The notes under the pieces are model-generated. The model ran no database searches, had not been told where the DNA came from, and saw only the letters and a list, made by a program, of their open reading frames with translations. A stretch of DNA of 33,229 nucleotides from Desulfuromonas sp. (GTDB lineage Bacteria > Desulfobacterota > Desulfuromonadia > Desulfuromonadales > BM515): positions 16,636 to 49,864 of the forward strand of contig PKUF01000007.1 of NCBI GenBank assembly GCA_002869635.1. The letters are read 5' to 3'. Shown here piece after piece: positions 9,931 to 11,506 of the stretch (position 1 is its first letter; each line of letters starts with the position of its first letter). Position numbers and translations under genes: made by a program.

Positions 9931-9959
9931 TTGACTTTTTCAGAGCGCTATGATACCTC
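9931..9959 (+). promoter_or_regulatory. Candidate sigma70 promoter for the leader ORF and aminotransferase
   Basis: TTGACT (9931-9936), 17-nt spacer, TACCTC (9954-9959). The -10 is weak. Confidence 0.4.
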
Positions 9960-9982
9960 CATTCGACACGAGGAGATGAATC

Positions 9983-10099
9983 ATGACCATCTGTCAGCAG
10001 ACCATTGAGACCATCCCGAGCGCCGCACGAGCTAGCAGCGCGGCTGCAGCAGCAGCCGCAGCAATGTTGAGTGCCTGCTGCCCGGGAAGGAACTGTTAA
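9983..10099 (+). CDS. Small 38-aa ORF MTICQQTIETIPSAARASSAAAAAAAAMLSACCPGRNC; candidate Ala-rich leader peptide or small Cys-rich protein
   Basis: SD-like AGGAG at 9971-9975, ATG at 9983, TAA at 10097, hairpin-T tract follows. Below the length cut-off of the supplied ORF track. Confidence 0.65.
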   Translation: MTICQQTIETIPSAARASSAAAAAAAAMLSACCPGRNC

Positions 10100-10123
10100 G
10101 CTCCTTCGTTTTTCCAAAGTGAA

Positions 10124-10163
10124 AAAGGCCATGGGCAGAGCGCCCGTGGCCTTTATCTTTTTT
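10124..10163 (+). terminator. Intrinsic terminator between the small ORF and the aminotransferase gene
   Basis: AAAGGCCATGGGC / GCCCGTGGCCTTT (13-bp stem with one G-U) followed by ATCTTTTTT. Confidence 0.85.
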
Positions 10164-10201
10164 CGACAACGTGAACCACCATTCTCAACGGGGAGATCGA
10201 G

Positions 10202-11506
10202 ATGCGCAACAATATCGTCCATATCGGCGCCGGGGAACTGACCTACGAAATCCGCGCCATTGTCGATATCGCCGACAAACTCAAAGAACTCGGCATCAAG
10301 ACCAATATGGAGAACATCGGCGACCCGATCGCCAAGGGAGAAAAGATCCCCGAGTGGATGAAAAAGATCGTTGCCGATCTGGCCATGAAGGATTGCGCCT
10401 ACGGCTACTGTCCGACCCGGGGCGTCCTTGAGACCCGCGAGTTCCTCGCTGACCTGGTCAACAAGCGGGGCAAGACCCAGATCACCGCCGACGACATCCT
10501 CTTCTTCAACGGCCTCGGTGACGCCATCCAGAAGGTCTACGGCTTTTTACGTCGCGAAGCCCGGGTCATCGGCCCCTCCCCAACCTATTCGACCCACTCT
10601 TCGGGGGAAGCAGCCCACTGCGGACAGAAGCCGGTCTCTTACCGTCTCGACCCGGACAACAACTGGTACCCCGACCTCGACGATCTGCGCCTTTCGGTGA
10701 AGTACAACCCGGCGATCTCCGGAATCCTCATCATCAATCCGGACAATCCGACCGGTGCCGTCTATCCTGAGAGGATTTTACGCGAGATTATTTCAATCGC
10801 CAAAGAGTATGACCTCTTCATCATTTGTGACGAGATCTATCACAACATCGTCTATAACGGTCAGTCGACCAAGCCGATCTCCGACCTTATCGAAGATGTC
10901 CCGGCGATTGCCATGAAAGGGATCAGCAAGGAAGCCCCCTGGCCCGGCGCCCGCTGCGGCTGGATCGAGGTCTACAATGCTGACAAAGACCCAATCTTCG
11001 AACAATATATTTCGAGCATTCTTAATTCGAAGATGGTCGAAGTCTGTTCTACCACCCTGCCGCAAAAGGCGATTCCCCAACTTATGACCCACCCCGAGTA
11101 TCCCGCCTACCTTGAGGAGAGACGGGGCCGCTATGAGCGCTGCTCGAACATCGCCTACGATATTCTCAAAAAGATTCCCGGACTCAAAGTGAACCGAAGT
11201 AACGGCGCCTTCTACATGGCGGTCGCCTTCGACAAGGGTCGCCTGACGGATAAACAGAGTCTGCCGATTGCCAATCCCGAGGTCAAATCTCTGGTTGAGG
11301 GGTTGGTCAATCAACCCGGCTGCTCTCTCGACAAACGCTTCGTCTACTACCTGCTCGCTTCCACCGGGATCTGTACCGTTCCCCTCTCTTCCTTCTGCAC
11401 TCCGGAGCGCGGCTTTCGCATCACCCTACTGGAACGGGATGAGGCTGAATTCACGCAAATCTTCGAGTCGTTGGCGGCCAGTATCGGCGCTTACCTCGCT
11501 TCCTGA
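10202..11506 (+). CDS. Class I/II PLP-dependent aminotransferase (alanine/aspartate transaminase-like)
   Basis: YGYCPTRGVLETREFLA, IINPDNPTGAVYPERILREIISIAKEYDLFIICDEIYHNIVY, KGISKEAPWPGARCGWIE. Confidence 0.9.
   Translation: MRNNIVHIGAGELTYEIRAIVDIADKLKELGIKTNMENIGDPIAKGEKIPEWMKKIVADLAMKDCAYGYCPTRGVLETREFLADLVNKRGKTQITADDILFFNGLGDAIQKVYGFLRREARVIGPSPTYSTHSSGEAAHCGQKPVSYRLDPDNNWYPDLDDLRLSVKYNPAISGILIINPDNPTGAVYPERILREIISIAKEYDLFIICDEIYHNIVYNGQSTKPISDLIEDVPAIAMKGISKEAPWPGARCGWIEVYNADKDPIFEQYISSILNSKMVEVCSTTLPQKAIPQLMTHPEYPAYLEERRGRYERCSNIAYDILKKIPGLKVNRSNGAFYMAVAFDKGRLTDKQSLPIANPEVKSLVEGLVNQPGCSLDKRFVYYLLASTGICTVPLSSFCTPERGFRITLLERDEAEFTQIFESLAASIGAYLAS

Follow-up and report, generated by a model that had tools for sequence, protein, structure and literature searches.

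Introduction

In the trp, his, leu, thr, ilv and phe attenuators (RF00513, RF00514, RF00512, RF00506), a leader open reading frame (ORF) contains consecutive codons for the amino acid produced by the regulated enzyme, the leader RNA forms the alternative pairings 1:2, 2:3 and 3:4 with an intrinsic terminator, and strand 2 lies within reach of a ribosome at the stop codon. The specificities named for ribosome-mediated attenuators are His, Leu, Thr, Trp, Ile/Val and Phe only (PMC3766115). T-box riboswitches (RF00230), which have been noted in Geobacter (PMC3766115), likewise monitor tRNA charging in front of amino acid genes, but they bind the tRNA directly without a leader peptide.

Here, we analyzed a leader (9931-10163) in a 33,229-nt stretch of Desulfuromonas DNA, hereafter called the window. 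The element shares the codon-run ORF and the strand layout of the classic attenuators, whereas it differs from them in its alanine control, in showing no sequence match to their Rfam models and in its host, a member of the Desulfobacterota; unlike T-boxes, it has a leader ORF. The Rfam search returned no match here to the T-box model and none at the gathering score to the Trp, His, Leu and Thr leaders, and at a relaxed threshold of E ≤ 10 the hits were to unrelated families, none of which reached its gathering score. A literature search found no described alanine attenuator, in line with the preliminary description of this DNA, which was aware of none; this is weak evidence of absence, as subscription papers lay mostly outside the search. 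Given that neither the searched literature nor Rfam contained an alanine case, the specificity appears to be new, whereas the mechanism is a known one. Specifically, we propose with a probability of about 0.9 that it is a ribosome-mediated transcription attenuator sensing alanyl-tRNA supply. Within the searched literature, alanine had been missing among the amino acids that control their own synthesis in this way.

Layout of the Leader and the Downstream Gene

The features of the locus are listed in Table 1. The promoter-like sequence, the Shine-Dalgarno (SD) sequence, the Ala-rich ORF with eight consecutive Ala codons, the terminator after its stop codon and the following aminotransferase gene were all present as the preliminary description had stated, and so were the pairing segments that it quoted (10075-10081, 10078-10083 and 10133-10138). 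The leader peptide reads MTICQQTIETIPSAARASSAAAAAAAAMLSACCPGRNC, and an FtsK gene lies upstream of the leader. The promoter-like element was not called by a consensus sigma-70 scan, and its assignment therefore rests on conservation: a TTGACTT...TGTGATAACC counterpart, read by eye, is kept 5' of orthologous leaders.

Table 1. Coordinates of the leader elements and the downstream gene in the window.
Feature	Position	Strand	Basis or remark
Promoter-like element TTGACT-N17-TACCTC	9931-9959	+	By eye; TTGACT at 9931-9936
Shine-Dalgarno GAGGAG	9970-9975	+	7 nt 5' of leader ATG at 9983
Leader-peptide ORF, 38 codons, 12 Ala	9983-10099	+	ORF list; 82 orthologous leaders tabulated
Strand 1, best placement	10014-10029	+	MFE fold and family co-evolution; exact borders inferred
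Conserved block CGAGC-N7-GCGGC	10028-10044	+	N6/7 spacing in relatives; includes Arg codon, almost always CGA
Eight Ala control codons GCG GCT GCA GCA GCA GCC GCA GCA	10040-10063	+	Sequence
Strand 2 (GCCTGCTGCCCG)	10073-10084	+	Ends 15 nt before last base of stop codon
Strand 3, terminator 5' arm and loop	10128-10140	+	Partner of strand 2 (antiterminator) or strand 4
Strand 4, terminator 3' arm	10142-10154	+	Terminator call, column test
Intrinsic terminator, 13-bp stem, -24.1 kcal/mol, with T-run	10124-10163	+	Stem 10124-10154; 24 nt past stop codon
Class I aminotransferase gene	10202-11506	+	Starts 47 nt past terminator; NF005334/PRK06855

The leader RNA fold was more stable than 200/200 dinucleotide-preserving shuffles (z -3.9). 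The RNA can also form the hairpin that had been suggested within the Ala run (10040-10059). When a ribosome was placed in the Ala run of the window leader, the free RNA at 10060-10143 folded into the antiterminator with -26.1 kcal/mol, as compared with -24.1 kcal/mol for the terminator hairpin. The 2:3 pairing proposed earlier exists, and its helix can extend beyond the 6 bp given for it, to 7 contiguous pairs plus outer ones.

The downstream gene had been described as alanine-transaminase-like. Its product matched NF005334/PRK06855 with 748 bits (cut-off, 443), the next-best family was the alanine aminotransferase PRK08363, and the nearest solved structure was E. coli glutamate-pyruvate aminotransferase AlaA (4CVQ, E 2.3e-45). 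Family model and nearest structure agree with the earlier naming, and an alanine transaminase activity is predicted by this homology, so that the control amino acid would be the product of the enzyme; the enzyme in a second set of loci (see below) is AlaC-like.

Conservation of the Leader in Desulfuromonadia

We next compared the upstream DNA of the orthologous gene at 106 distinct loci. The occurrence of the Ala-codon ORF and the terminator at orthologous loci, a check that the preliminary description had proposed, was confirmed: in 82/106 loci, nearly all from Desulfuromonadia, a terminator followed a short ORF containing an Ala run, and the 5' arm of this terminator was usually GGCCATGG. 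At least two further loci (L082 and L127) match the layout and fell outside the 82 through the SD filter. Ala accounted for 31% of the residues in the 82 leaders vs 9.5% in the window genes. Among the remaining loci, 13 (L095-L097, L100-L106 and L108-L110) are titled as unclassified Deltaproteobacteria/Proteobacteria or as Desulfobacterota of other groups, and no such leader was seen in them.

When 37 leaders were used to build a covariance model, it matched 231/277 genomes of the class, from 80/82 genera, at E ≤ 0.01, and about 200 of these genomes, as counted from the table, still matched at E ≤ 1e-4. The same leader was found in 20 loci from families further removed within the class. Outside the class, the Ala leader precedes the same enzyme in L196, L197, L204 and L259. 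Weak matches outside the class (~1e-6 or worse) were, among those inspected, often plain terminators or other genes (e.g., L201, L203, L206 and L207); these were rejected. The strict GGCCATGG-type terminator pattern occurs essentially once per genome, at the transaminase locus, two others being L222 and L226. The window terminator falls outside this strict pattern, and a looser pattern matches exactly once in its genome. The conservation spans a bacterial class and provides a genetically simple case, which suggests a way in which these bacteria may monitor their supply of alanine.

The leader is dispensable, as it is absent in some members of the order (L024, L029, L042, L053, L061, L063 and L126). 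In leaderless relatives (L024, L029, L042, L061 and L063), the promoter-like element directly adjoins the gene, and in most of these five a palindrome centred on GTATAC (CTGTATACAG-like) lies farther 5', which is possibly an operator in place of the attenuator or belongs to a neighbouring gene. On the Geobacter side (L169-L188; e.g., L176 at ~150-175), the leader ATG is located ~8-10 nt past a -10-like box with no SD, and the leader peptide may there be translated from a leaderless transcript.

A Similar Leader Upstream of an AlaC-Like Gene

A covariance match led to a different aminotransferase gene in another order, which provides a second and independent case. Its product is AlaC-like, with the alanine transaminase PRK08175 as the best NCBIfam model at 515 bits, below the cut-off of 647. 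The Ala-run leader and the terminator were present in 11/11 readable close homologues (73-100% identity), one further close homologue, L233, being unreadable and outside the 11, and in 0/9 inspected distant homologues (47-52% identity). Most of L229-L240 carry tandem terminators, as the first one is followed, ahead of the AlaC-like gene, by another GC-rich hairpin and T-run.

Co-Evolution of the Pairing Strands

We then compared how well strand 2 pairs with the terminator arm of the same leader and with permuted arms, using 47 non-redundant leaders and 20,000 permutations. The mean energy was -18.1 kcal/mol with the own arm vs -15.7 kcal/mol with permuted arms (z -6.5, 0/20,000), relatedness by descent being not fully removed in this test. 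Strand 2 falls within the final codons of the leader ORF. In a column test on a sequence-only alignment, 33 two-sided cells were counted for the 2:3 pairing (shuffles, 4.6), and 98% of the 3:4 pairs were intact. The compensatory changes anticipated by the preliminary description were seen in both pairings. On the loop side, compensatory 2:3 changes were CTTCACTGCC:GGCAGTGAAG in L019, TTTTTCTGCC:GGCAGAGAAA in L022 and GAGCGGC:GCCGCTC in L016; these reach the terminator loop, indicating that 3:4 pairing cannot explain them.

When all region pairs were scanned, the top signals were arm 3 x arm 4 (z -6.3) and strand 2 x arm 3 (z -6.0). Weaker signals were obtained for strand 2 with arm 4 (z -3.7), the 5' leader (z -2.7), the N-terminal half (z -3.0) and the Ala motif (z -3.0), and the remaining region pairs were null. 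On our reading, the signal with arm 4 may be a by-product of the palindromic CCATGG. A local hairpin at the stop codon in the VHHP group was considered as another sink for strand 2 and rejected, as strand 2 and the spacer showed no co-evolution (z -0.7). The specificity of 2:3 did not reach significance in two subsets, the 20 Geobacter-side loci (p 0.16) and the 11 AlaC loci, in which the sequences are too similar for a decision. RNAalifold on the family found the terminator only, as is expected for alternative structures.

The pairing 1:2 also showed co-evolution when a wider strand 1 was used (z -3.4, p 0.0005). Strand 1 was located mainly 5' of the Ala run, as in L020, where CAGGCAACaaGGGCA pairs with TGCCCgTTGCCTG. 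From the proposed four-strand scheme, pairings 2:3 and 3:4 were thus retained, but the placement of strand 1 within the Ala codons (GCAGCAG, 10046-10052) was not, as relatives and the MFE fold favour ~10014-10029. In the window, the latter position is the more likely one, and the Ala run would then serve as an inner hairpin and the stall site.

Codon Usage in the Leader ORF

The Ala codons of the leaders differed from those of the adjacent gene. GCA and GCG together made up about 70% of the leader Ala codons (32% GCA, 36% GCG) vs 29% in the adjacent gene (8% GCA, 21% GCG; p 2e-13). As for Arg, the codon preceding the Ala run (10028-10030 in the window) was CGA in 63/66 leaders having Arg at that site, as compared with 14/165 Arg codons elsewhere in the leaders and ~10% of Arg codons in the window genes; five leaders have CAA in place of CGA. 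It is possible that the conserved CGA is a slow 'pacing' codon or a part of the RNA motif CGAGC-N6/7-GCGGC.

Proposed Mechanism and Alternative Explanations

In the proposed mechanism, a ribosome would translate the Ala-rich peptide while RNA polymerase transcribes the leader. With ample Ala-tRNA, the ribosome would reach the stop codon and cover strand 2, so that the 3:4 terminator forms and transcription stops before the transaminase gene. When Ala-tRNA is scarce, the ribosome would stall in the Ala run and cover strand 1, strands 2 and 3 would pair, no terminator would form and the alanine-transaminase gene would be transcribed; the gene is thus very probably turned on by low levels of charged Ala-tRNA. 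In the absence of a ribosome, 1:2 pairing would again favour termination. The locus has a leader ORF, predicted to be translated, that bears initiation signals and a control-codon run; it also has a terminator between ORF and gene, a 2:3 pairing that is mutually exclusive with 3:4 and shows compensatory change, and a 1:2 pairing. This layout, its conservation, the co-evolution of all three pairings (1:2, 2:3 and 3:4), the bias among the control codons and the occurrence of the leader before two different alanine transaminases are seen in the sequences, and from them we infer stalling, readthrough and the response to alanine. The interpretation as an alanine-responsive attenuator, first made from the window alone, is supported by these comparative sequence data.

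A nascent-RNA fold model of 75 leaders gave 10.1 expected 2:3 pairs for a ribosome stalled in the Ala run vs 6.0 without a ribosome (p 2e-12); the value of zero for a ribosome at the stop codon follows by construction, because the assumed footprint covers strand 2. In this model, the pre-emption of 2:3 by 1:2 holds only on average and has little effect in some leaders, such as those of the window and L041: the stall value for the window alone (8.2) was not above that without a ribosome (8.9), and the two values were nearly equal for L041.

Other explanations were weighed against attenuation. The SD, the conserved arrangement of start and stop codons and the conserved AxRAxxAAA core could indicate that the short ORF encodes a functional microprotein, is served by a promoter and a terminator of its own and has no link to transaminase control. 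However, the peptides are unalignable outside the core and range from 16 to 45 residues in length, strands 1 and 2 are kept as pairing partners and not as amino acids, and the upstream gene changes while the element stays with the transaminase, making such a gene very unlikely. Less probable still is an alanine-binding riboswitch, or a leader bound by another trans-acting factor, in which the Ala-rich ORF would be incidental. The nucleotide block CGAGC-N6/7-GCGGC is indeed conserved beyond the needs of the peptide, but the motif region folds no better than shuffles, no conserved fold is present besides the four strands (RNAalifold giving just the terminator), the Ala codons show control-codon bias, and a relevant Rfam match was not obtained.

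We consider it just as improbable that the terminator is an ordinary intergenic one and that the transaminase gene is driven from a promoter 3' of it, a possibility already raised in the preliminary description. Part of a promoter would fit into the gap at 10164-10201, and the upstream gene encodes FtsK; on the other hand, the scan called no plus-strand sigma-70-like site in the gap, though it misses the upstream element too, and a conserved promoter-like element stands before the leader and, in leaderless relatives, directly before the gene.

Related Leaders with Other Control Codons

Besides their bearing on attenuation by alanine, the collected leaders provide a strong comparative data set for the co-evolution of control codons, codon choice and RNA switching. 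L198, L199 and, less clearly, L200 encode Leu-rich leader peptides and have the same GGCCATGGGC terminator and a similar layout, with Leu instead of Ala as the control codons. The gene following the Leu leader in L199 and L200 is a predicted 2-isopropylmalate synthase gene, as named by eye. L205 has, in the region around 224-410, a leader, MMMNKNYYFWYFFTSVCPLADGG, whose control codons are for Phe, Tyr and Trp instead of Ala, and which is probably an aromatic attenuator. The Leu and aromatic leaders and the Ala leader have a similar GGCC[AG]TGGG terminator stem.

As a tentative reading, whose parts taken jointly we rate at clearly less than an even chance, these leaders would be built on one arrangement of the Desulfobacterota, in which the end of the ORF supplies a strand 2 that matches the GGCC[AG]TGG terminator and only the control codons are exchanged: Ala for the two alanine transaminases, Leu for isopropylmalate synthase and aromatic codons for DAHP synthase. 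The Ala version would add the near-invariant CGA as a pacing site, and the leader ORF of the Geobacter relatives would start almost at the 5' end of the transcript. In L205, the leader is followed by two GGCCGTGGG-type terminators and then by a predicted DAHP synthase gene, the name of which was read by eye.
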